In this document: positions 20,249 to 34,688 of the stretch, piece by piece
Layout: every line of letters begins with the position of its first letter
Numbering within the stretch: the first letter of the stretch is position 1
Source of the DNA: Cyanobium usitatum str. Tous
GTDB taxonomy: Bacteria; Cyanobacteriota; Cyanobacteriia; PCC-6307; Cyanobiaceae
Reading direction: 5' to 3'
NCBI RefSeq assembly: GCF_963920485.1
Contig: NZ_OY986431.1
Span: 124,001 to 188,000, forward strand
Length of the DNA: 64,000 nucleotides
Made by a program: the position numbers and the translations under genes
The notes under the pieces: model-generated
What the model was told of the DNA's origin: nothing
Databases searched by the model: none
Seen by the model: only the letters and a program-made list of their open reading frames with translations

Positions 20249-21411
20249 CGCACCTCGTAGTGCAGCCAACGGCAGTCGATGCCGCCGTTGCTGATTGGGA
20301 TGCGGCGGCTGGCCTTCATTTTGAGGGCGCCGGTGAGCTCTGGGTTGCCGCTGAGCAGCCACAGGCTCCAGCCGCCGCAACGCTCCTTCACCATGCGGCC
20401 CAGGTCGGCGTATAGAGGCTCCAGGCCCTCACGCTCGCCGATGCGCTCGCCATAGGGCGGGTTGCACACCAAGATCCCCGGCCCGGGCGGAGGCATGAAG
20501 TCGCGGCAGTCGCCCAGGCTCAGTTCCAGGGCACTTGCGATGCCGGCAGCCTCAGCGTTGCCTTGGGCTTGATCAAGCACGCCGGGATCCTGCTCCCGGC
20601 CAACGATGGGCGCCAGGGCTTCTCCGCTGGGGAGCGTCTCTCGGGCCAGGTCGCTGGCCGCTTGCCTCTCTTGCTGCCAGAGCTGGGAGTCGAACTTTGG
20701 CCAGCGCTCCAGGGCGAAGTGGCGGCCCAGACCCGGCGCCCGGCCCAGGGCCAGGCAGGCCGCCTCAATCAGCAGGGTGCCGGAGCCGCAAAGGGGGTCG
20801 GCCAGGGGCACCGAGCCATCCCAGCCGGTGAGGGCGATCAGGCCGGCGGCGAGGTTTTCCTTGAGCGGGGCCAGGCCCATCGCTGCCCGGTAGCCGCGGC
20901 GGTGCAGGCTGCCGCCGCTGCCATCGAGGCTCAGGGCTGCTTCGCCGCCGCCCAGGTGCAGGTGGATGGAGAGGTCGGGATTGTCTAAGTCAACGGAGGA
21001 GCGGGCGCCCCACTGCTGGCGCTGCAGATCCACCAGGGCATTTTTGACCTGCAGGGCGCTGTAGTGACTGTGGTTGAGGCCAGGAGCGCTGCCGGTGGCA
21101 TCGACCCGGAAGGTGGCGCCAGGAGGCAGCCAGCGGCTCCAGTCGACGGCGCGCTGCACACCGTCGTAGAGCTCGTCTTTGCTACGGCAGGGAAATTGAG
21201 CCAGTTCAAGCAGGAGCCGGAAGGGCAGGCGGGCTTGCAGGTGCAGCCGGTAGTAGCCAGCCAGGTCTGTTTGGAAGCGCACGGCCCGGCGTAGGCGTGC
21301 TACGGCTTGGCAGCCCAAGGCCGTGAGCTCAGTTGCCGCGGCGTCTTCGAGGCCCGGTGGCACAACCGCTATTCCGCTGATTGATGTGCTGTTTAGTTCG
21401 GTGATGCCCAC
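20245..21411 (-). CDS. THUMP-domain class I SAM-dependent RNA methyltransferase (RlmL/YpsC type)
   Basis: About 388 residues from GTG at 21411; a TTG at 21441 is possible but would overlap the tmRNA 5' region. The N-terminal THUMP domain binds RNA. The methyltransferase domain has LADPLCGSGTLLIEAA and the amino-methyltransferase motif VCNPPYGERIG. Relatives methylate guanine in 23S rRNA (RlmL/RlmK) or related targets. It overlaps the end of the convergent holin-X gene by 4 bases. The exact base modified cannot be told. Confidence 0.9.
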   Translation of the reverse strand: MGITELNSTSISGIAVVPPGLEDAAATELTALGCQAVARLRRAVRFQTDLAGYYRLHLQARLPFRLLLELAQFPCRSKDELYDGVQRAVDWSRWLPPGATFRVDATGSAPGLNHSHYSALQVKNALVDLQRQQWGARSSVDLDNPDLSIHLHLGGGEAALSLDGSGGSLHRRGYRAAMGLAPLKENLAAGLIALTGWDGSVPLADPLCGSGTLLIEAACLALGRAPGLGRHFALERWPKFDSQLWQQERQAASDLARETLPSGEALAPIVGREQDPGVLDQAQGNAEAAGIASALELSLGDCRDFMPPPGPGILVCNPPYGERIGEREGLEPLYADLGRMVKERCGGWSLWLLSGNPELTGALKMKASRRIPISNGGIDCRWLHYEVR

Positions 21412-21602
21412 CCCTGCGTCGGCCCTTGCTTGCTGCCACAATGAACCAGTCTGGTTTCGACCTGACTAGGTGGCTCACACCAGTGCTTCGGACAGCGGTT
21501 CGATTCCGCTCAGCTCCATTCCCCCATCTCGGGGCTGCAATGGTTTCGACGGGGTATAAGGAGGGTGACTGAAGCCTGCTCGGTAAGAGCAAATCCGTAA
21601 CA

Positions 21603-21653
21603 GCGAATAACATCGTTCGTTTCTCCCGTCAGACCGCCCCCGTGGCCGCCTGA
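21603..21653 (+). CDS. tmRNA proteolysis-tag reading frame
   Basis: The resume codon GCG starts a 16-residue tag ANNIVRFSRQTAPVAA ending at TGA. The tag is added to stalled proteins and its hydrophobic VAA end directs them to Clp-type proteases. The sequence is the form I associate with the picocyanobacterial lineage and is a strong taxonomic marker. Confidence 0.93.
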   Translation, partial: ANNIVRFSRQTAPVAA

Positions 21654-21684
21654 CCCTTTAAGGGAGATGGGGTGAGATCAGCCT

Positions 21685-21724
21685 TATCACCCAAATGATC
21701 CATGGGGCCTGGAAGGGCCCTTTT
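21685..21724 (+). repeat. Left attachment repeat (attL)
   Basis: 40 bases identical to 34453-34492, beginning TATCACCCAAATGATCCATG and including the ssrA terminator hairpin. The base before and the base after differ between copies, so the identity ends exactly at 40 bases. It marks the left border of the element. Confidence 0.92.
21704..21724 (+). terminator. ssrA terminator (left copy)
   Basis: Stem GGGCC/GGCCC with loop TGGAAG, followed by TTTT and then AAG. It ends the tmRNA transcript and lies inside the left 40-bp repeat. The right-hand copy at 34472-34493 has five T residues, so the U-tract next to ssrA is one base shorter after integration. Confidence 0.75.
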
Positions 21725-21770
21725 AAGTAAGTACGGCAAGGGTTTTACGGTTTTTCGCCCAAGGCTGTTC

Positions 21771-21977: not shown

Positions 21978-22304
21978 TTACACCACTTTGACGCAGTGGT
22001 GAATGCCATAGCTCACATACACGTAAAACCGCCCAGGCTCACCAAAGAGCGTTTCGTTGATGGGGGAGCGGCGGCGGTAGCCGTGACAGGCGGGGTCGTC
22101 TTGGGAATACGCCTCCGTTTCCACAATGACCCCCCACAGCAGCTCGCCATCTGGTTGGCGTTTCACCAGCAGGCAGCCGATGAGCTCGGGAGCGACGACC
22201 TCGGCGGGGCGGGCGAAGAAGCTCTGGGGGGAGGGCTGGGAGGGCGTGGTGGCTGTGGGAGAGGCTTTGGTGAGGTCGCTGATGCCATCCTGCTGCCAAC
22301 CCAA
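21978..22304 (-). pseudogene. Truncated 3-methyladenine DNA glycosylase (Aag/MPG family)
   Basis: The frame encodes the N-terminal half of an Aag-type glycosylase: [20 protein letters not shown], then [20 protein letters not shown] with the catalytic Glu of ETEAY, then [13 protein letters not shown] and a TAA stop. The family is about 190-200 residues; the C-terminal 100 or so are missing. No ATG start is available in front (TTG at 22304 is the best). It is probably a remnant, either of a chromosomal gene disrupted near the integration site or of cargo. Confidence 0.75.
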
Positions 22305-22368
22305 TAACTGACCTAAAAACCCATATGCCGCAACACTTTGCAGCAATGTGGGGAAAATATTTTCCTTG

Positions 22369-23391
22369 ATGCAGCGCTCTATCCGTCTCAGCCTGTCGCT
22401 GGCGGGCACTGCCGCACTTGCACTGGCATCACTGCCTCTTGCCATCAGACCTGCAGTGGCTCAGGAGGCACCCGCAGCATCAGCAGAGCCAAAGGCTGAA
22501 AGCACTGAGGCAGCAGATCTTGGCGTGATGGGCGTCAACCTCAGGGATGCCGTCAAGTTCAACTACGGCTTTCAAGGAGCACTACAAGGTGCTGGCACTC
22601 CTAACCAAGCAGGCATTGGCGCCTTTATTCCACTCCACGTCGGCAGCAACGGCGTTGCCTTTGTGGATGTGCTCGTGAATGCCAACTTCAGTGACTACAG
22701 CGGTTACAGCAGCATCATTAATACTGACGTTTCAGGAACCACCTTCTCTACTTCCACACGCCTGGGTTACCGCTGGCTCAACAGCAACCGCTCTTGGATG
22801 TTTGGTGTCAATGCGGGTTATGACAGCCGACCAATGGCAACGGGTCCTGCTGATACAGGTGTCAATGTCACCAACTCACAAACGGTGTTCTTTCAGCAGG
22901 TAGCCGCATCTTTGGAGGCAGTATCCAATACCTGGAACTTCAATGCCTATGCGCTGGTGCCGATTGGCGATACGGAGCAGCAGCTCAATAGCGTTTATGA
23001 CGGCGGGGCTCTGGATACCTACGGCTTAGACGCTGGCTACAGCATCACCCCAGATTTCAAGGCATCGGTTGGTTACTACTACCAAAATGGCGATTTGGGT
23101 GACGCCAATGGTTCTGGTGTGCGAGGCAGGCTTGCTTACAACCTCACCAATGGGCTCACCGTTGGCGCCAATCTCTCCTACGACCAAGCATTTGAGACCA
23201 GGGTTTCGGCAGACATCAAATATCGCTTTGGCGCTAATGGTTATGGCGCACCAAGCATTAGAAAGCAGCAGCCCGTGGTGATGCCTGTTATTCAGGCGCT
23301 ATCAACAACGCCAGCCAACAGGGATGTGCGGGTGCACGATTGCCTGACGGGTTTTAACGGTGATTTTCTGTACTGTATCCCTATAATATAA
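22369..23391 (+). CDS. Outer-membrane beta-barrel protein, inverse-autotransporter-like
   Basis: 340 residues from the ATG at 22369. A signal peptide ends at AVA before QEAPA. The mature part has alternating beta-strand sequence and motifs such as [20 protein letters not shown] that resemble intimin/invasin beta-domains. A C-terminal stretch after the barrel is short, so no large passenger is present. It lies inside the ssrA element, has lower GC than core genes and is followed by a clear terminator. Possible roles are surface change or phage resistance; this is inference. Confidence 0.7.
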
Positions 23392-23627: not shown

Positions 23628-24413
23628 CTACCAAATACTTCGCTCCCTATCGCCATCACGGATGCCGTTGACTCTTCTAAATCTCACCGCTATTTGATGC
23701 CACTCTTCAGGGATTTGACTGAGGCGACAATCAAAAGCAAACGGTAGTTGAGTTTGCCCTGGTGATACTCGTTTCTTTTTGCTCCTGCTGCTTCTGCTGG
23801 TCTCTACCAATCGCTTCAGCATCCGTGAGCCCCAGTGGCACTTAGGTGCCCCTTTGCTGTGATGGCGATACTGCTGGCAGAAATACTCATAACGCTTGGA
23901 GCATCCTTTCAGGGTTGGTGCCAGGGTTAGGAAACTTGGGTGCCATTCACTGATGCCATCACTCTCCAACCTGCCGTAGTGCCCGTAGTTGGAATAGGGG
24001 TCATAAAATCCCTTTCTCACTCCTGCTGCTTTGGGATTGGCGTGGATATACCTGAGTGTATTCAGCACTCGTCTGTGGTCTTTAGGAGCAATCGCAGTGG
24101 CGTAATACCTTGCCTCCCAGAAGTGCCCGCAACGCCCAGCAAGGCGGTTGAGTGCCATTGCTGAATACCAACCCACCCAGTGCATCAAACGGGGAAGTTG
24201 AGAGGCATCGTCAGGTCTGATAAGAAGGTGTAGGTGATTTGCCATTAAACACACCGCATACAACCTGTGTGGGATTTTTGCTTGTGCTTTAGCGAGCACT
24301 GAGAGCAACACATCCCGCCGCAAACCTTTGGCAATCAGAAACTGACGGCTGTTACATCTAAGCGTGATGTGAAATGAATACCCCTGAGGCAGGCAGCGTG
24401 GTGAGCGGGGCAT
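23628..24413 (-). CDS. REP-associated tyrosine transposase-like protein (RAYT, IS200/Y1 family)
   Basis: 261 residues. The N-terminal GYSFHITLRCNSRQFLI and the HUH motif NHLHLLIRPD identify a Y1 transposase, and the tyrosine is probably in RYYATAIAPKD. Such enzymes cut single-stranded DNA at hairpins; RAYTs are usually domesticated single-copy genes. The C-terminal 90 residues are basic. No left/right IS ends or REP palindromes are visible. Two tiny ribbon-helix-helix-like genes lie directly upstream in the same direction and may be part of the same operon. Confidence 0.82.
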   Translation of the reverse strand: MPRSPRCLPQGYSFHITLRCNSRQFLIAKGLRRDVLLSVLAKAQAKIPHRLYAVCLMANHLHLLIRPDDASQLPRLMHWVGWYSAMALNRLAGRCGHFWEARYYATAIAPKDHRRVLNTLRYIHANPKAAGVRKGFYDPYSNYGHYGRLESDGISEWHPSFLTLAPTLKGCSKRYEYFCQQYRHHSKGAPKCHWGSRMLKRLVETSRSSRSKKKRVSPGQTQLPFAFDCRLSQIPEEWHQIAVRFRRVNGIRDGDRERSIW

Positions 24414-24846: not shown

Positions 24847-24999
24847 ATGATCAATAAAGACCTGGCTACAGGTGCTGCAGCCTTAAAGCGCACCTACGTG
24901 ATTGCCCCAGAAGCATTGCCGCAACTGGTGGTTGCCTTTTCGGTTGGCATTGAGTTAATGCGCCGAGAATTGCTCATGTACTTATGGCGGAATGAGTGA
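24847..24999 (+). CDS. Small protein (50 aa) coupled to small-terminase-like gene
   Basis: It begins MINKDLATGAAALKRTYVIA and ends YLWRNE; AAGGA in front of the ATG is a good ribosome-binding site. The middle is a hydrophobic or amphipathic helix (residues 20-46). Its TGA overlaps the ATG of the next gene (TGATG), so the two are probably co-translated. Family unknown. Confidence 0.5.
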   Translation: MINKDLATGAAALKRTYVIAPEALPQLVVAFSVGIELMRRELLMYLWRNE

Positions 25000-25355
25000 T
25001 GGCAGGTCGAAGCGCTACTACTGAACGCGTCAACTGGGCACTTGAACTGCTCATGGCGGGCCGCGGCAGTACTGCTGTGGTGACGGAACTGTCGCAACGT
25101 GAGGGGATCAGTAGGCGGCAAGCGCAACGCATCACAGCCAAAGCGCATGAAATCCTTGTCACTGATTTGGATCAAACAGAGAGAAAGCACTTGGTTGCTC
25201 AGTTGGTGCACATCCTCATGGAAGCCGCCGCCCAAGCACTTAAAGCAAAAAATTCTGGTGCTGTGGTGGGAATAAGTAAAGAATTGCGGGTACTAGTCGG
25301 ACTTGGTGCTGACACCTCACCAAGGAACAGCAGGTTTGGGAATTTTGCTCATTGA
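24999..25355 (+). CDS. Helix-turn-helix protein resembling a phage small terminase subunit
   Basis: 118 residues. The N-terminal half includes TERVNWALELLMAGRGSTAV and then VTELSQREGISRRQAQRITA, a clear helix-turn-helix of the type used by TerS proteins to recognise phage packaging sites. The second half is helical (HLVAQLVHILMEAAAQALKA), fitting an oligomerisation region. In phage satellites a lone TerS redirects helper-phage packaging. That role here is inferred; a plain HTH regulator is the alternative. Confidence 0.5.
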   Translation: MAGRSATTERVNWALELLMAGRGSTAVVTELSQREGISRRQAQRITAKAHEILVTDLDQTERKHLVAQLVHILMEAAAQALKAKNSGAVVGISKELRVLVGLGADTSPRNSRFGNFAH

Positions 25356-25370
25356 GGAAGTTACCAAACG

Positions 25371-25745
25371 TTGGACGGGTTTTATCTGCTGTTTGTGTCT
25401 CCCATATCAACTCAATCGAAATGTCATCTCAGTGCCTCCCATGCCTCCCTGGAGCGGATCGATGGTCAGGACGAACCGCCACCTCCGCCATCAGGCCCTG
25501 GAGAGGGTTTTGGTCAGCCAAAAGAAGGCAAGAAACGAGCCAAAGGTGATTTCCGCGGCATCAAGCTCAGCAACAAGACCCACCGCTCAACGACGGATCC
25601 AGACGCACTACTGGCCCGCAAGTCCAGCGCTCACCCGGCACTGCCCAGCTACCGAGGCCATGTGCTCATGGACAACCGCCATGCCCTGATCGTGGATTGC
25701 CAAGTCACCCAAGCGGTGGCGGCGAGTCAACCACATCAGCCTTGA
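25371..25745 (+). pseudogene. Fragment of an IS4/IS5-superfamily transposase
   Basis: The frame contains GDFRGIKLSNKTHRSTTDPD, then LARKSSAHPALPSYRGHVLM and NRHALIVDCQVTQA. These match the central part of IS5-type DDE transposases (FxGxKxSNxTHxSxTDP...GHxLMxNRxGLxVD). Both the N-terminal part and the remainder of the catalytic domain are missing. At about 25725-25740 it runs straight into a truncated RraA-like gene on the other strand. Confidence 0.75.
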
Positions 25746-25905
25746 CGGGCCTGGCCCAGCCAACCAATACGTTGTCGGTGAGCGTGCGGGGTTGAATTTG
25801 GATTGCCAGACTCTGATTTCGGTAACTTAACCGATCGCAGATGTCTGAGATCACCGCACTGAAGGCACTGCGTGCAACGACGTCGAGGTCGACCGATGAG
25901 CTCAC
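25738..25905 (-). pseudogene. RraA-family aldolase-like gene, N-terminal fragment
   Basis: From a GTG at 25905 overlapping the SDR stop (GTGA), the frame reads SAVISDICDRLSYRNQSLAI and then LVGWARPV. This matches the N-terminal strand-helix of RraA-like proteins, which include hydroxy-oxo-acid aldolases. The match stops at about 25738, where transposase sequence begins. It was the fourth gene of the catabolic operon before truncation. Confidence 0.6.
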
Positions 25906-26650
25906 TTGTAGAACTCCGAACTCACTCCACCGTCGATTAAGATGTCGGACCCAGTAATATAGCCGGCTCCCGGTCCCGCCAGAAAGAGCACCGCGGCGGC
26001 GACCTCCGTTGGCTCGCCGAGCCGACCTATGGGGTGAGCTGCAGCCCACTTGTCACGCATCTCCGGTCCAGTGGCGTCAGCAAACTGCTCCGCCGTAATC
26101 TGCACCAGAGGAGTATCGATGGTGCCGGGCGATATGCTCACGGCACGAATTCCCTCGTGAGCATGATCGATCGCGATCGTTCTGGTCAGGCCAAGGACAG
26201 CAGCTTTCGAAGCTGAATAAGCCGCGGTCATTTTCTGGGAGGCGTGGGCAAGGATTGACGCCGTATTGATGATCACCCCACCCCCGTTCTTGCGTAACAG
26301 AGGGATAGCGATTTGGCCGAAAGAAATTGCGCAGTTACGTTCACGGCGAACGTAGTCCGCCAGTCACTGAGCTCGAGTACTTCAACAGTTCCGTAGCGAG
26401 TAATCCCAACGTTGTTGAACACGAGCTTAAGAAGTTGTGTTTTTTTGTCAGTGGAGGCGAAAGCTGCAGCGATCTGGTCAGGGTCAGAAACATCGCATCG
26501 CACAAATGACCCGCCTATCTCCGAGGCGATGGCCTCTCCGGGTTCCTCAAGAACATCAGCAATCGTGACGTACCAGCCATTCGCGGCAAGGAGCTCCGCG
26601 GTCGCTTGTCCAATGCCTCGCGAGCCGCCAAAAATCAGGGCGCCGTTCAT
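25902..26650 (-). pseudogene. SDR-family dehydrogenase, frameshifted
   Basis: The first part from ATG at 26650 has the NAD-binding motif GGSRGIGQATAELLA, DVSD and NNVGITRYG. The second part in another frame has INTASILAHASQKM, the catalytic YSASK and the C-terminal GSDILIDGGV. The frame change lies near 26310-26330, where the second frame would give GQIAIPLLRKNGGG. One missing or extra base breaks the gene, unless it is a sequencing error. It overlaps the SMP-30 gene by 4 bases (ATGA). SDR enzymes of this kind oxidise sugars or alcohols. Confidence 0.8.
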
Positions 26651-27528
26651 TCTGAGACCTTGAAGGGCGTGCTTGCTCGCCCTTGTACGCCCGGTCGGCA
26701 CGCAAAGACTGAACCCGCGAGAGGCTCTGCATCCAATTGATCTGGAGTGAGCTTGTATGCCGCGGTCGTAATGAACAGCGTGCCGAGGTCTTCACCGCCG
26801 AAGCAGCAGCTCGTCACTTGTGACACCGGGAGCTTCACGGAACCTACAAGAACGCCGGCGGGAGAGAAGCGCCGAACCTCTCCCGTCCCAAAATAGGCAA
26901 CCCAGATATGTCCCTCGCTGTCGACTGTCAATCCATCGGGCATCCCTGTACCGGGCTCCCCGGGCACCAGGGCGCGTCGGTTGGCTAACTCACCCGCGAC
27001 TAAGTCAAAATCAAAAACATCAACGGCGTACGTTCCCGAGTCAATAAAGAACATCTTGGTTGCATCAGGGCTCCAGTCCAGTCCGTTCGAGATGGTCAGG
27101 TCAGGTAGCACCTTGACAAATGACCGACCATCCACTCGGTACAGTGACGCAGCCCCTTCGGCGAAATCAAAAGCCATCGTTCCAGCCCAGAGTCGCCCAA
27201 GAGAATCGATCTTCGCGTCGTTCATGCGGTTGCCACGGTTGTCGCTCTCAATTGCCGCAACCAAAGCCTGACCCTGGCCATTTCCATCCGTTAGATAAAC
27301 CCCGTCGCGAGCAGCGACAACTAAGCCACCCGCGGAGGTGGGCGCCGCAGCTCCTACTTCTTGCCCGAAGTCAAAGTGTCGAAGTTCGGCCTCAGAAGGG
27401 TGGTAGCGATAAATCCGACCTGGAGAAACATCCACGAAGAGCAAGCTGTTGGTTGCCACATCCCACACTGGCCCCTCACCGACGTCGAGACGCAGTTGGA
27501 GCAGAGGTTCGTCAACGGACAAGTCCAT
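26647..27528 (-). CDS. SMP-30/gluconolactonase/LRE-like lactonase
   Basis: About 293 residues from ATG at 27528, which has AAAGGAAG in front; an ATG at 27546 overlaps the upstream stop (TAATG). The six-bladed propeller has the metal-site motifs VGEGPVWD, RMNDAKIDSLGRLWAG, ISNGLDWSPD and MPDGLTVDSEGHIWVA. Such enzymes open sugar lactones made by sugar dehydrogenases. It is the only intact gene in a four-gene operon of the non-phosphorylating sugar-oxidation type. Its GC and codon use differ from the core genes. Confidence 0.88.
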   Translation of the reverse strand: MDLSVDEPLLQLRLDVGEGPVWDVATNSLLFVDVSPGRIYRYHPSEAELRHFDFGQEVGAAAPTSAGGLVVAARDGVYLTDGNGQGQALVAAIESDNRGNRMNDAKIDSLGRLWAGTMAFDFAEGAASLYRVDGRSFVKVLPDLTISNGLDWSPDATKMFFIDSGTYAVDVFDFDLVAGELANRRALVPGEPGTGMPDGLTVDSEGHIWVAYFGTGEVRRFSPAGVLVGSVKLPVSQVTSCCFGGEDLGTLFITTAAYKLTPDQLDAEPLAGSVFACRPGVQGRASTPFKVSE

Positions 27529-27545
27529 ATATGGCTTCCTTTCCA

Positions 27546-28130
27546 TTAGGGCATCCCTAAAGAGGCGCCACCATCGATGAGCAAAGTGGTTCCCGTAACA
27601 TTCCGAGCTTGATCAGACAAAAGAAACGCTGCGCCGTGAGCCACGTCCTCGGGCGTCTGCAACCGACCTAGAGGAACTGTCCGTGTTATTCGCTCGGCAT
27701 ACTCCGGATTTCGCTCCGCCTCTGCTTTCGCCAATCCGGCGTTGACGATTCCGGGTGCGATGACATTGACACGGATGTCGTATCTCGCCCACTCCAATGC
27801 GAGTGTCTTGGCGCCCATGGCAATTGCCGCTTTGGTCGACGAGTAACTCAGCAATTCTGGCCACGGTCTATCGCCCACCCATGAACCCGTAAAGAGCATC
27901 GATCCACCCCCGTGGCTAAGCATGTTGTTCGCGATTAGTCTGGCCAGCCGAAAGTTGCCGACAAGGTTGACATTGATGTGACTGTGGAAGGTCTCGTCTT
28001 CGAAACTCATCGCTGCCTCAGGAACCACAATGCCGGCATTACCAATATAAGCCCCCAAATCTGGGTGCTTAGTTATCGCCTTAACGGAAGCCGAGGCATC
28101 TGTCACATCAAGTTGCTCATAAGTGCCTCC
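27546..28130 (-). pseudogene. SDR-family dehydrogenase, N-terminally truncated
   Basis: About 195 residues of an SDR: LDVTDASASV, YIGNAGIVVPEAA, GGGSMLFTGS, catalytic YSSTK and the end GTTLLIDGGASLGMP. The N-terminal 50-60 residues with the glycine-rich NAD motif are absent. In-frame homology starts at about 28130, exactly where helicase-like sequence ends. An internal ATG at 28106 could not make a working enzyme. Confidence 0.8.
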
Positions 28131-28486
28131 CCAGCCCGTGCTGCAGCAGTGCCATGGCGGTGAGCTCTGAGCTGTTGGCCGAGCCGATCACAGCTGCGAT
28201 TCGCCCAGCACAACACCCGAGCACTATCAGGATTCCGGTCCCATTCCGGTGAGCAGATCGCCCTGGCTGCCGCGGCCTGCCATGAGCCCTGATGGGGGTG
28301 CAGCACCACCGAACCAGCGGCATCAGACCGGCTGCTGGTGGGCCACACCAAACCAGGGTGAGAGGCCTTCCTGACGGCGGTGGCCAGGGCCAACACCGCG
28401 CCACCATTCCTCACCACCTCGGTGAGCACGGCGGTGGTGGGTGCCTGCAACCTGCTTGATGAAATTGCAGTGGCACCACACCGCAA
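28128..28486 (-). pseudogene. Fragment resembling an SF1 (Dda/RecD/UvrD-type) helicase
   Basis: The minus strand reads TTAVLTEVVRNGGAVLALAT and further on ARVLCWANRSCDRLGQQLRA. The second resembles the helicase C-terminal motif (LxWTNxxVxxLNxxIR), and the first the RNGGAILxLAT segment before it. No start, Walker A or C-terminal motifs remain. It joins the truncated SDR at about 28130. The call is a motif impression and could be wrong. Confidence 0.4.
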
Positions 28487-28534
28487 CAGAACACCCGCTC
28501 ACTTCGGACGCTTCGGCAGGAGCAACACACACCC

Positions 28535-28783
28535 GTGAGCAACGCTGAAGAGATCGCTGCCGCCTTTGACCGCGTAGATGCGCTGCTGGTAGCTGCCACT
28601 GCTGCGGCACCTGCTGTTGCCTTGCTGGCGGCCCGTGCTGCTGAACGTGGCATCAGCGAAGCCAAGCTGGCAAACCACCTGCACATAGGCAACCCCACGG
28701 TGCTGCGATGGGTTCTGCGGTTGGAGCCTGCCACCGCTGACCGCTACACCGCCCGAGGAAACGGGAGAGAACCTCACCACTGA
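28535..28783 (+). CDS. Small putative HTH protein, unknown
   Basis: 82 residues from GTG at 28535. An Ala-rich helical first half is followed by GISEAKLANHLHIGNPTVLR, which looks like a helix-turn-helix. It could be an element regulator. No family recognised. The end is short and hydrophilic. Confidence 0.45.
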   Translation: MSNAEEIAAAFDRVDALLVAATAAAPAVALLAARAAERGISEAKLANHLHIGNPTVLRWVLRLEPATADRYTARGNGREPHH

Positions 28784-29699: not shown

Positions 29700-32462
29700 T
29701 CACGCTGCCTCCTGCACGGGAATAGCGAAGCCACTAGCGCGTCGCTTGGCTGCCTGCTCCAGTGTTTGCAACAGGTCTGGGAGTTCCTCGTCACTCCAGC
29801 CGCTTAGGTCTTTGCTGTGACCCAGCTCGCGGATGCGTTGTTCGAGAGGTTGCCGGCAAGTGGGTGGCATGTGGGTGGCAACATGCCCAGAAGCGTTGTC
29901 GTCACTGCCGTTTGGTCGTGTGGCAACCTCGGCAACCTCAAAAAAGCTACATATGGCGCCGTGCTGCTCCTGCTGCTCCTGCTTTTCAGGTTTTAACGAC
30001 TGATCTTGACTTTTAGAGGTTGCCGAGGTTGCCACCCCATTAAAAGCATTGGCATCACAAGCGTTTGGGGCTGTTACCAGGCATGTTGCCGAGGTTGCCG
30101 AGGTTGCCACCTGCGGCCATAAGCCCAGCTTCCTTTCACCACCATTTGCTCGCCTCTGCTTGTGGCGCCAACCAAGTGATTCCGCCAGCTCCCGTACGCG
30201 TTTTCCGTGGTGGGTGTTTTGGCGCTCGCTGGCCATTCCGATGTGATCGAGAAACTCACACGCCTGCACCGGGATGTGTTGCTCCTGTTGCCGCCGGCTT
30301 AGGTACTTGCTGAGCGCGGGCATCCATACGTCTTGCTCGCGGAAGTCGTCGTTCTGCTGCTCAGAAGCATCGGCAAGGCCATCGGGCAGCATCGGCAGCT
30401 CGCCACTGCGGTAGGCCAATACAGCCGACTTCCAGATGCCATCACGGGCTTCTGCAAGGCCAGCACGATCAAGTTTCTCGGTGCCATCAATCGGCACAAC
30501 CCAGAAGCGGCGGTTCCCGGTGTCATCGCGCAGGAACACCCTTTTGTTGACGGTTGCGCAGAAGACAGAAGGCCGCTTCATACGCTCCGGCACCTTGCCG
30601 TATGGCACCCGCACCAGGTCGGTGGTGGTGGTGAGCATGTTCTTGATCTTGCCGGCGGCTTTGGCTCCCGTGAGTGACTCCAGCTCTGCTAACTCAAAAA
30701 TCCAGCAGCAGTGAACATTCAGCGTCCAATCTTTGTCTTGATCGGGGATTGTGCTGGTGAACCACTCGGGTGATGCCAGCTCTCGAAGCTCGCTGGATTT
30801 GCCGATGCCTTGAACGTCGGACTGGAGCACTAGGCAATAGTCCATCTGACAGCCGGGGTCGATTGCGCGAGCAACAGCACCGATTAGCCATTTGCGCACC
30901 ATTGCTTTGTGCAATGCACTTGCAGCGCGGAAGAACCGCGGCGCCACTTGATCTAGGTCAAACGCTGCGATGGCTGGATCAGCTTCAACTCGCTTCAGGT
31001 ACTCGCGTACCGGGTGAAAAGGATTGCGCCTTGCCGCTAGCAGTAGGCCCGCTTCAGCAGCTTCTGATCCGATGATCCAGCCCGCTTCTGATAGCTCGCC
31101 ATGCAGGAGGGTCACTTCCCAGTCTTTCAGCGGTACGCGATCCACCGCGGGCATCAGCGCCACCTCGTCAAAACCAAGCCGGCTGCCTAGCTCGCTGGTA
31201 AGGCGCCCAGAAAGATCGCCAATGGCCATCTTGCTGCGCATCGGCGGCCCTTCTTTTTGTTGCCGCCAGCCAGAACCGCGGGCATCCAAAACGGCTTGAA
31301 TCCCGGTGCTAGTGATGGCGGGCTTGCTGGTTCTGGCGGTTTTGCGGCGCCTGTCTGGATCTGGCGCAACGAACACCGAGAACTCGTCCCCGGTGCCTTG
31401 CACCTTGCTGAAAGCCCATATGGTGCCTTGCTTGTCGGTGATCTCATCGCCAGGCTTTAACCCCATTGGCGGCTTAAAGGTGCTCCCGTGAAAGCACCTG
31501 ATGGTTTTGCCGTCTTTGTGTTGTGAGCAATAGCCGGTTGTATCCCTGCCGCATATCGGGCATGGGTTAAGTGATCGCCAATCACCTTTGCCGGTGCTTC
31601 TGGCTTTTGTGGTGGCGGCTTTGGTGGTGGTGTCGCCTGCAATGGTCAGCGCCGCTTGCCACCACGCCGTAGGTATCGGCGCTAGTTCTTCAACTGCAAG
31701 ACCATCGGGCCAGTAGTAGTTGCCGCCGCTGTCGTGGTGCTGCCCGAGAACCACCACCTGGCCCCCGGTGGAATGGAACACCTCCACCGCCTCGCCTTTC
31801 TCGATGACGTTGCCGGCGTCATCCTTCACCGCGTCTTTGGTGTGTTCCTTTGGCTTTGCATTGCCGAATTGCTGCTGCTGCGTAGTGGTGAGCGTGAACG
31901 CAACCTTGAAGCGGTTTGGGTCGGTGTCTCGATGGATCTGCCACGTCTTAGTTGCCCTCGGGTCGCAGTTGTGATCCAGCAGCCACTCCAGCGCGGTAAC
32001 CCCATCGACATCGAAGACGAGCAGGCCGTTACCCGTTCGGACACCACAACCAATCGCGGCTCCGGATTCCGCTATCTGCTCAGCTTTGAACGCTGCTTGC
32101 TGCCACCGACTTAGGTGTCTGCCGGTAACCAAATGGATAGGGGCTTTGTCGGTGCCAACAGCCAGCAGCGGCGCCCTTAGTTGGCTTAGGCGCTCGACCT
32201 GTAGACGCCAGTTAGGGACGTCACATACGTTGCGTACCTGTTGTGATGACAGTGTGAGTAGGTCTTTTTCTGTCTCACGGCTGCTGGTAGCAACTAAAAC
32301 ACTGGGGTTTGGCGACTTCTCTTGAGATTGATCAGCTTCGTTGGCAGAGACGCATCGTCCTAGATCAGCACTGTCTAGGTCCAAGACATCATGAGAATTG
32401 GCAGCTACGATGGTGGTTGAGCTTTCCATCGCTTGGCTGCCGTGCATGGCAGCCTCTTTCAT
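29700..32462 (-). CDS. Element replication protein: primase-polymerase plus VapE/VirE-type helicase
   Basis: 920 residues. About residues 85-290 form a prim-pol domain (GLLVFDVDGVTALEWLL with acidic residues, later VEVFHSTGGQVVVLGQ). Next is a zinc-binding segment (NPCPICGRDT...CSQH...IRCFHG). The C-terminal helicase has the P-loop SDVQGIGKSSELREL and the VapE pattern WIFELAELESL ... FCATVNKRVFLRDDTGNRRF. Such proteins start replication in phage satellites and pathogenicity islands. The start overlaps the excisionase-like gene by 4 bases (ATGA). The last 150 residues are low-complexity. Confidence 0.85.
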   Translation of the reverse strand: MKEAAMHGSQAMESSTTIVAANSHDVLDLDSADLGRCVSANEADQSQEKSPNPSVLVATSSRETEKDLLTLSSQQVRNVCDVPNWRLQVERLSQLRAPLLAVGTDKAPIHLVTGRHLSRWQQAAFKAEQIAESGAAIGCGVRTGNGLLVFDVDGVTALEWLLDHNCDPRATKTWQIHRDTDPNRFKVAFTLTTTQQQQFGNAKPKEHTKDAVKDDAGNVIEKGEAVEVFHSTGGQVVVLGQHHDSGGNYYWPDGLAVEELAPIPTAWWQAALTIAGDTTTKAATTKARSTGKGDWRSLNPCPICGRDTTGYCSQHKDGKTIRCFHGSTFKPPMGLKPGDEITDKQGTIWAFSKVQGTGDEFSVFVAPDPDRRRKTARTSKPAITSTGIQAVLDARGSGWRQQKEGPPMRSKMAIGDLSGRLTSELGSRLGFDEVALMPAVDRVPLKDWEVTLLHGELSEAGWIIGSEAAEAGLLLAARRNPFHPVREYLKRVEADPAIAAFDLDQVAPRFFRAASALHKAMVRKWLIGAVARAIDPGCQMDYCLVLQSDVQGIGKSSELRELASPEWFTSTIPDQDKDWTLNVHCCWIFELAELESLTGAKAAGKIKNMLTTTTDLVRVPYGKVPERMKRPSVFCATVNKRVFLRDDTGNRRFWVVPIDGTEKLDRAGLAEARDGIWKSAVLAYRSGELPMLPDGLADASEQQNDDFREQDVWMPALSKYLSRRQQEQHIPVQACEFLDHIGMASERQNTHHGKRVRELAESLGWRHKQRRANGGERKLGLWPQVATSATSATCLVTAPNACDANAFNGVATSATSKSQDQSLKPEKQEQQEQHGAICSFFEVAEVATRPNGSDDNASGHVATHMPPTCRQPLEQRIRELGHSKDLSGWSDEELPDLLQTLEQAAKRRASGFAIPVQEAA

Positions 32463-33107: not shown

Positions 33108-34322
33108 TTACGCCAAAACTTTCTGGAAAGCGGCTGCCGTTGTCGCTTCTGATGCCCAGCGATAGCTGCTGCTATGTACAGCCACCGAGTGCCCCATGGA
33201 TGCGGCTATGGCGCCCATTTCAACCTCGTAGCGATGGCATCGCAGGCTGTAACTATCCCGGAATGTGTAACTGCGTAGCCATTCGCCGCGAGCTTCGCAG
33301 CGGTTCCGCAACTCTTTCCATTCAGGCTGACCACGTAGGAACTGCTCGACGTAGTGCCCGTTCAGCTCACGGGGTCTGCCGTTGGCACCGAGAGGCAGCT
33401 CAAGCAGTCCAGCAGCCATTGCGCCTACCAGATTCCAGTGTTGCTGCGCGTTAGCGGCGTCCTTCACTGGACATGGCTCAATCCAGCGTGGATCTGTGAG
33501 CTGCCCGCCGCAGTTTTTCTGGTACGAGCACCACATGCCGAGGCTGCCGTCCTCACGTTGTTTGGCTTGGATGTGCTGCAGCTCAATCGGGCGCAACCCA
33601 TAGAGGGCAAGCAGCTTCAGCACGTTTGCCCACCGGCTGTTCCGAGCCTCAACGCCGTCGATCAGATACAAGATTTCTCCGTCTTCCAATGCTGCTTTGA
33701 CCCGTTTCTTTGGTGCCTTGCCGCGCAGCTCCTTGATGCTTGCAACGTCGATGCGCCAGCAGCCTGGGGCTCTATGACGGGCGATGGCGTGGTCAGTGAG
33801 GTTTCGGACCGCGATGCAGCAGGCGGCGCGACTGGCTGCTTTCCCTTGCCACTTCTCAAGGGTCCGGCGCAGAAGTTCGTGTCCATCGTTGGGCGTGTTT
33901 CGGCTGTCAAGAACCCTTAGGGCTTCTGTGATGTACGGGGCGTAGTTGTCGCGCCATGTAGACGACAGGATCTCGTTGCGGCCCTCCATGAGAGCTGCCT
34001 TAAGACCCTTCTCAACGACCTTCCAGTCGGTGCCAAGACGCATGGTGTCGCTGCCGGCCCGCACTATCTCGAGGGCTCCTTTGACGGTTGCCTGCCCGGA
34101 TCCGACCAGCCGATAAATCTGGCCGATTAGTTGCAGCGCCCTGTTCTGACTTTCCTTGCACCAGTCCAGGGGCAGTACGCAGGTTTCTGATGCCTGCCCC
34201 GGCATCCGCACTTTGAGCTGGATTTTTCCCGCGCCGCTCGGGTTCACGGTCCATCCGCGACTGACCTTTGCCGCGCTCCGGAACGATGCCTCCCATGGCG
34301 GCTTGGTGGCTTCCCTAGGCAT
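33108..34322 (-). CDS. int: Tyrosine recombinase (element integrase)
   Basis: 404 residues from the ATG at 34322; the frame is open to 34376, but the longer start would place the TTGTCCA inverted repeat within coding sequence. Catalytic motifs: Arg I in ALYGLRPIELQHI, the HxxR-type box SLRCHRYEVEMG, GHSVAVHSSSYRW with the His and the nucleophilic Tyr. It is oriented with its start next to the right 40-bp repeat, as expected for an integrase whose attachment site is ssrA. It should integrate and excise the element. Confidence 0.85.
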   Translation of the reverse strand: MPREATKPPWEASFRSAAKVSRGWTVNPSGAGKIQLKVRMPGQASETCVLPLDWCKESQNRALQLIGQIYRLVGSGQATVKGALEIVRAGSDTMRLGTDWKVVEKGLKAALMEGRNEILSSTWRDNYAPYITEALRVLDSRNTPNDGHELLRRTLEKWQGKAASRAACCIAVRNLTDHAIARHRAPGCWRIDVASIKELRGKAPKKRVKAALEDGEILYLIDGVEARNSRWANVLKLLALYGLRPIELQHIQAKQREDGSLGMWCSYQKNCGGQLTDPRWIEPCPVKDAANAQQHWNLVGAMAAGLLELPLGANGRPRELNGHYVEQFLRGQPEWKELRNRCEARGEWLRSYTFRDSYSLRCHRYEVEMGAIAASMGHSVAVHSSSYRWASEATTAAAFQKVLA

Positions 34323-34337
34323 TGGCTGAGCACGGGC

Positions 34338-34357
34338 TTGTCCACAATTATGGACAA
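34338..34357. promoter_or_regulatory. TTGTCCA inverted repeat beside integrase start
   Basis: TTGTCCA (34338-34344) and TGGACAA (34351-34357) separated by 6 bases form a perfect inverted repeat, 16 bases upstream of the integrase ATG at 34322. The same half-sites occur three times near the left repeat. Binding by Int, Xis or a repressor would link excision with integrase expression. Confidence 0.5.
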
Positions 34358-34452
34358 AAATGCTCCTTGAGGTCAACAGATGCTTCCTTGGATTCCCTTA
34401 GATGCCCTGCTGTGGCTGGAAAAAGCTCTTATGGCTGTGGCGAATAAATTTC

Positions 34453-34492
34453 TATCACCCAAATGATCCATGGGGCCTGGAAGGGCCCTTTT
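34453..34492 (+). repeat. Right attachment repeat (attR)
   Basis: Second perfect copy of the 40-bp repeat, ending in the terminator hairpin GGGCC/GGCCC and TTTTT. It marks the right element border; core-type GC-rich sequence resumes immediately after it. Confidence 0.92.
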
Positions 34493-34688
34493 TAGTGGCT
34501 GGGGGTGGGATCTCGCGCGAAGCAGCTGCCGGCTCGGCCACTACAGATTCGGCAGCTACTGCGTCAAAAGCCGCTGATCGCGATGTTTTAGCAACCCCTC
34601 GGCGGGCAAAACTCAGCCGCTTTGTGCTGCGCGGTCTGCGCATCGCTGCCAGGCTGAACCGTGCCCACCTGCCGCAAGGGAAAGGACA

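Follow-up and report, generated by a model that had tools for sequence, protein, structure and literature searches.

Genes for the oxidative breakdown of sugars in a phototroph raise the question of where they came from and whether they still work. Such genes lie in a 64,000-nucleotide stretch of the Cyanobium usitatum str. Tous genome (contig NZ_OY986431.1, positions 124,001 to 188,000; hereafter the window, whose own positions are used throughout), where a sequence-only reading had described a decaying four-gene sugar-oxidation operon. We consider it very probable that these genes are what is left of the middle of an aldose-oxidation operon from actinobacteria, its ends torn away, lying as cargo debris in a 12.8-kb integrative element in the tmRNA gene of this picocyanobacterium, and that the route they once served is dead.

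The operon fragment is real, although its ends lie at about 25717 and 28124 rather than at 25738 and 28130 as first described. It spans ~2.4 kb of the minus strand and holds, in this order, the remnant of a short-chain dehydrogenase (SDR1, 27546-28124), an SMP-30/gluconolactonase-type lactonase (26647-27546), a second short-chain dehydrogenase (SDR2, 25902-26650) and the remnant of an RraA-like aldolase (25717-25905). All of the parts named in the sequence-only reading could be recognized from open reading frames, Pfam profiles and the proteins of relatives, and the four genes run in one direction and are joined by TAATG, ATGA and GTGA overlaps, read directly from the sequence.

The lesions are likewise as that reading had them, with truncations at both ends, a frameshift within 26300-26340 and only the lactonase (299 aa) undamaged. 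SDR1, listed as an open reading frame at 27546-28106 with its frame open on to about 28124, retains the C-terminal ~192 residues and lacks ~54 N-terminal residues, with which its nucleotide-binding motif is gone; the remnant is 53% identical to residues 55-245 of a 247-aa SDR at locus L017 and matches Pfam adh_short_C2 (E=7.7e-37, profile positions 51-235 of 236). SDR2 changes frame at about 26312-26325, and its two open frames match a single 255-aa SDR at locus L151, at 46% identity over residues 8-131 and 53% over residues 120-255, with Pfam matches on each piece. The aldolase remnant comprises the first ~63 residues, being 39% identical to residues 4-64 of the 218-aa L017 RraA in a tblastn match, the E-value of which was computed for the 2.7-kb target only, and then stops. 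By itself this 63-aa piece has no Pfam match, and its probable identity rests on three things: the match to L017, where it stands among the operon genes, and the GTGA at which it overlaps SDR2.

The arrangement is not a product of chance, since SDR1, lactonase and RraA stand in the same order and on one strand in the Pseudonocardiales metagenome-assembled genome (MAG) RYN_117 (L017/L101), and the lactonase and SDR2 genes of L151 and L152, loci of two small actinobacterial genomes from the order of G857, adjoin and again share an ATGA overlap. The three RYN_117 proteins are 53%, 53% and 39% identical to those of the fragment, and among the loci compared, the window's own aside, only this MAG matched all three genes in that order. 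Unlike the fragment, its operon is undamaged, has no SDR2 between lactonase and RraA, and carries upstream of these genes an ABC transporter (recognized by eye) and an enolase-superfamily dehydratase, which in L017 just passes as a galactonate dehydratase by NCBIfam (312.2 bits, cut-off 311). L151 and L152, with 45-54% identity, also include SDR1 in the locus, together with a GntR-like regulator, transporter genes and a dehydratase (from matches and by eye; the L151 dehydratase is split into two matches), but there SDR1 is divergent and CoA-transferase and enoyl-CoA hydratase genes, recognized by eye, follow. No RraA match was found in the 15 kb read at L151/L152, and no relative examined holds all four genes in the window's order. 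A plasmid of Streptomyces goshikiensis (L162) carries a 43% identical lactonase with a KDPG-type aldolase, a sugar kinase, an SDR and an annotated galactonate dehydratase, a gene set that is a phosphorylating cousin of the operon.

In non-phosphorylating sugar oxidation, an aldose is converted to a lactone, then to an aldonate and a 2-keto-3-deoxy acid, which is then cleaved. Judging from the relatives, the parent operon would have imported an aldose through the ABC transporter, one SDR would have oxidized it to the lactone, the SMP-30 lactonase would have opened the ring and the enolase-superfamily dehydratase would have formed the 2-keto-3-deoxy acid, leaving the second SDR and the RraA-like aldolase to finish the breakdown. 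The earlier description of an imported piece of an oxidative, non-phosphorylating sugar operon is thereby supported. The dehydrogenase with its cofactor motif, the dehydratase and the aldolase of a complete oxidative aldose operon are not present intact; neither open reading frames nor Pfam revealed a dehydratase inside the fragment. Elsewhere in the genome, the RraA family has no match, and of four MR_MLE_C matches the two above the cut-off, read by eye, are a dipeptide-epimerase-like protein and MenC, so that no sugar-acid dehydratase was recognized between them. With transporter and dehydratase absent, SDR1 deprived of its cofactor site, SDR2 frameshifted and most of the aldolase missing, the route would be unable to run.

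The sequence-only reading had also placed the fragment inside a mobile element, and its surroundings agree. A 44-nt direct repeat at 21685-21728 (plus strand) takes in the 3' terminus of the tmRNA gene at 21433-21720 (Rfam cyano_tmRNA RF01851, 312.5 bits), and a copy identical at 43 of 44 positions lies at 34453-34496 (plus strand). Beside the right repeat, the two repeats enclose an integrase-like gene (33108-34376, minus strand), which has a weak match to the phrog_1 integrase (E=7.1e-4), no Pfam match at E<=0.01 and, by eye, the tyrosine-recombinase motifs Arg, GHS and Tyr. Also between the repeats are a Y1 transposase (23628-24413) and an open 920-aa frame for a PrimPol and VapE-type helicase (29700-32462, minus strand; Pfam VapE-like E=4.6e-57, Prim-Pol E=8.3e-8), a protein with matches at E<=1e-20 in 36 of 151 genomes of the host's family, its own included, the best other being 42% identical. 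From these features we read the segment as a putative 12.8-kb integrative element in ssrA. Tycheposons are described as tRNA-bordered islands with XerD (PMC10872708). Like tycheposons and other tyrosine-recombinase islands at tRNA or tmRNA genes, the element has an integrase-like gene by one repeat, a primase-helicase, metabolic cargo and a small stable RNA gene as its site; unlike them its cargo is broken, and the likeness, one of gene content and site, makes it at most a candidate tycheposon.

Several further features of this region were observed. ARAGORN calls a second tmRNA at 21018-21518 (plus strand), overlapping its call at 21429-21744, and Rfam backs only the latter. Just inside the left repeat lies a shortened methylpurine-DNA glycosylase (21978-22445, minus strand; profile positions 1-79 of 181), overlapped by a divergent open reading frame, and the element also contains a 347-aa frame (22348-23391, plus strand) that by eye resembles an outer-membrane protein with a signal peptide and has a marginal DUF2490 match. 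A 119-aa protein at 24996-25355 (plus strand) resembles by eye a phage terminase small subunit, with no Pfam or PHROGs match at E<=0.01, and would suggest a phage-satellite lifestyle of the element.

Both neighbors of the fragment are themselves incomplete. Its left end adjoins a 282-base internal scrap of an IS transposase (25434-25715, plus strand; about residues 152-246 of 378), the best matches of which, at 84-86% DNA identity, are in genomes of the same family. Copies of 378 aa occur in L075 and L076, and this IS is found widely across the family, several of whose genomes had two scored matches. At the right end, the truncated SDR1 adjoins an apparent scrap of a Dda-like helicase (28125-28486, minus strand), to which phrog_325 gives a weak match (E=4.3e-5 for the frame at 28106-28486) and Pfam none. 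As both ends of the operon and both neighbors are incomplete, the simplest history would be a longer import followed by deletions, in which rearrangements would have cut the pieces and left the IS scrap at one end and the apparent helicase scrap at the other.

The sequence-only reading had proposed a BLAST search for the donor operon, and we searched at both the DNA and protein level. The DNA search of the family, which scored two candidates per genome and could miss some, matched 57 of 400 genomes, the host's own included; in 51 of these the match is confined to about 25432-25726, the IS scrap with its edge, in four the right flank alone matches (28247-28635, over 31-53 bases), and one (G205) has only a 32-base match within the RraA remnant (E=9.5e-5), taken as chance. 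At the protein level, 25 of 99 family genomes (own included) matched the lactonase, the best other at 41% identity, and these matches branch apart from the window's copy. A scan of 84,980 species genomes gave 56 lactonase loci, the best being that of the Pseudonocardiales MAG RYN_117 at 53%. Around this relative, 8 of the 298 genomes searched in its order gave strong lactonase matches (E<=1e-60). Of 394 genomes in the class to which a second actinobacterial bin belongs, 2 gave a strong lactonase match (E<=1e-70) and 3 a strong SDR1 match (E<=1e-35); the actinobacterial affiliation of these genomes is that of the order and class of the two named bins. One SDR1-positive genome comes from an order in which genomes are mostly small (0.9-2.2 Mb among those matching) and which we infer to be Nanopelagicales. 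Of 221 genomes of this order, 73 matched the lactonase at E<=1e-40, and the two best, those of L151 and L152, reached 49%. Plasmids gave no DNA match to the fragment, and their protein matches were all below 60% among the matches listed; peptide patterns, which reach close relatives only, found no lactonase in viral_contigs.

Phylogenetic trees place the lactonase, SDR1 and SDR2 each within Actinomycetota, the RraA remnant being too short for a tree. In a first tree of 33 of 69 rows (at least 41% identity, plus five distant ones), the lactonase groups with the Pseudonocardiales MAG (bootstrap/SH-aLRT 99/94), and the L151 and L152 genomes join next (95/91). An enlarged tree of 43 rows, to which four alphaproteobacterial plasmid sequences and one from a Streptomyces plasmid, more proteobacterial rows and an Arcobacter-named bin were added, gives the same grouping (100/90, then 96/95). 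Matches shorter than ~220 residues or containing stops were left out of the lactonase trees, and 67 of 86 rows were kept after removal of duplicates; deeper branches are partly unresolved, with Acidobacteriota and Bacillota rows nearby. Similarly, SDR1 groups with the Pseudonocardiales MAG (100/98), and SDR2, which had no firm place until the L141/L142 relatives (the L151/L152 genomes) joined its tree, groups with those same two genomes (100/99). The donor was thus most likely an actinobacterium judging from these sequences, and the closest of the actinobacterial relatives that the search yielded for three genes is about 54% identical in protein sequence. At third codon positions the fragment's GC (0.58-0.64, a range that leaves out the SDR2a row) lies below that of five host core genes (0.75-0.82) and of the MAG lactonase and SDR1 (0.76 and 0.80), which points to a donor of middling GC or an intermediate carrier.

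Here the sequence-only reading erred, having regarded such a route as typical of heterotrophic proteobacteria; a proteobacterial donor is rejected by the trees of all three genes, and we consider this source highly improbable. In its C-terminal half, SDR2 shares 50% identity with an SDR from an Agrobacterium plasmid, the next branch out in its tree (90/84), but that SDR sits in another gene set without a lactonase, and nearer kin are actinobacterial. An Arcobacter-named bin (L060) has a lactonase 51% identical over residues 140-287, yet its contig has 66% GC and the protein falls beside Acidobacteriota at 100/98, which makes the name of the bin doubtful. Moreover, eight proteobacterial lactonases, four of them from plasmids, fall away from the window copy together with this bin in the enlarged tree, and the proteobacterial lactonases listed are 33-40% identical at genome loci and at most 43% on plasmids. 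We give equally little credence to an intact operon whose damage is an error of assembly or sequencing. Frame changes of one base are frequent among such errors, and the frameshift could in principle be one, but the longest run of any base at 26312-26325 is three or fewer, and the genome is a single contig of 2.66 Mb, 99.86% complete. The truncations are less easily explained in this way, because they adjoin the remnant of an IS that is common in the family and what appears to be a piece of a helicase gene.

A separate matter is whether selection has preserved the surviving lactonase, amid decaying neighbors, as a stand-alone hydrolase acting on sugar lactones of environmental origin or from the host's own metabolism. 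Its sequence matches Pfam SGL over profile positions 1-245 of 246 (E=2.3e-79), a full-length domain of the SMP-30/gluconolactonase/LRE family, and regucalcin (4gnb) over nearly its whole length (E=2.4e-53); of the 33 alignment columns with at least 90% conservation among the other 66 rows it follows 32, including E24, N109, N154 and D204, which we take to be the metal-site residues, and it is the only SGL-family match in its own genome. The lactonase therefore looks catalytically complete, and retention of conserved residues is also the pattern expected of a selected gene. Against this, the 5' end of the operon is gone, with any promoter there, and the start codon of the lactonase overlaps the broken SDR1's stop codon. 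Given a single point lesion in the 2.4-kb fragment, a 0.9-kb gene would by our own arithmetic escape it about 63% of the time, so its intactness is not evidence of selection. Furthermore, the broken SDR1 and the lactonase are about equally close to the MAG: over the same columns the window SDR1 is 53.1% identical to that of the MAG, compared with 40.1% and 42.6% for the intact copies of two other actinobacteria (G1117 and G758), and the intact lactonase is 54.7% identical to that of the MAG. As the broken SDR1 shows no excess divergence, the breakage is young relative to the divergence from known relatives, and an intact lactonase needs no selection to explain it. The dN/dS ratio proposed for the lactonase would not be meaningful, since at ~54% protein identity to the nearest relative found synonymous sites would be saturated. 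We therefore regard selective retention as unlikely and survival through recency or luck as the better account, selection not being demonstrable. More doubtful still is the broader proposal that such elements move metabolic operons between phyla, from actinobacteria of the plankton to picocyanobacteria sharing their water, with the lactonase retained as a stand-alone lactone scavenger.

Taken together, the torn actinobacterial operon represents cargo from another phylum caught while still being lost, and the element that carries it retains open integrase-like and replication genes. Mobile islands of this kind are already known, and the value of this one is its resolved source and a warning for annotation, namely that no sugar pathway should be annotated here from the surviving lactonase. 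Such islands can deliver catabolic genes to a phototroph that does not retain them.
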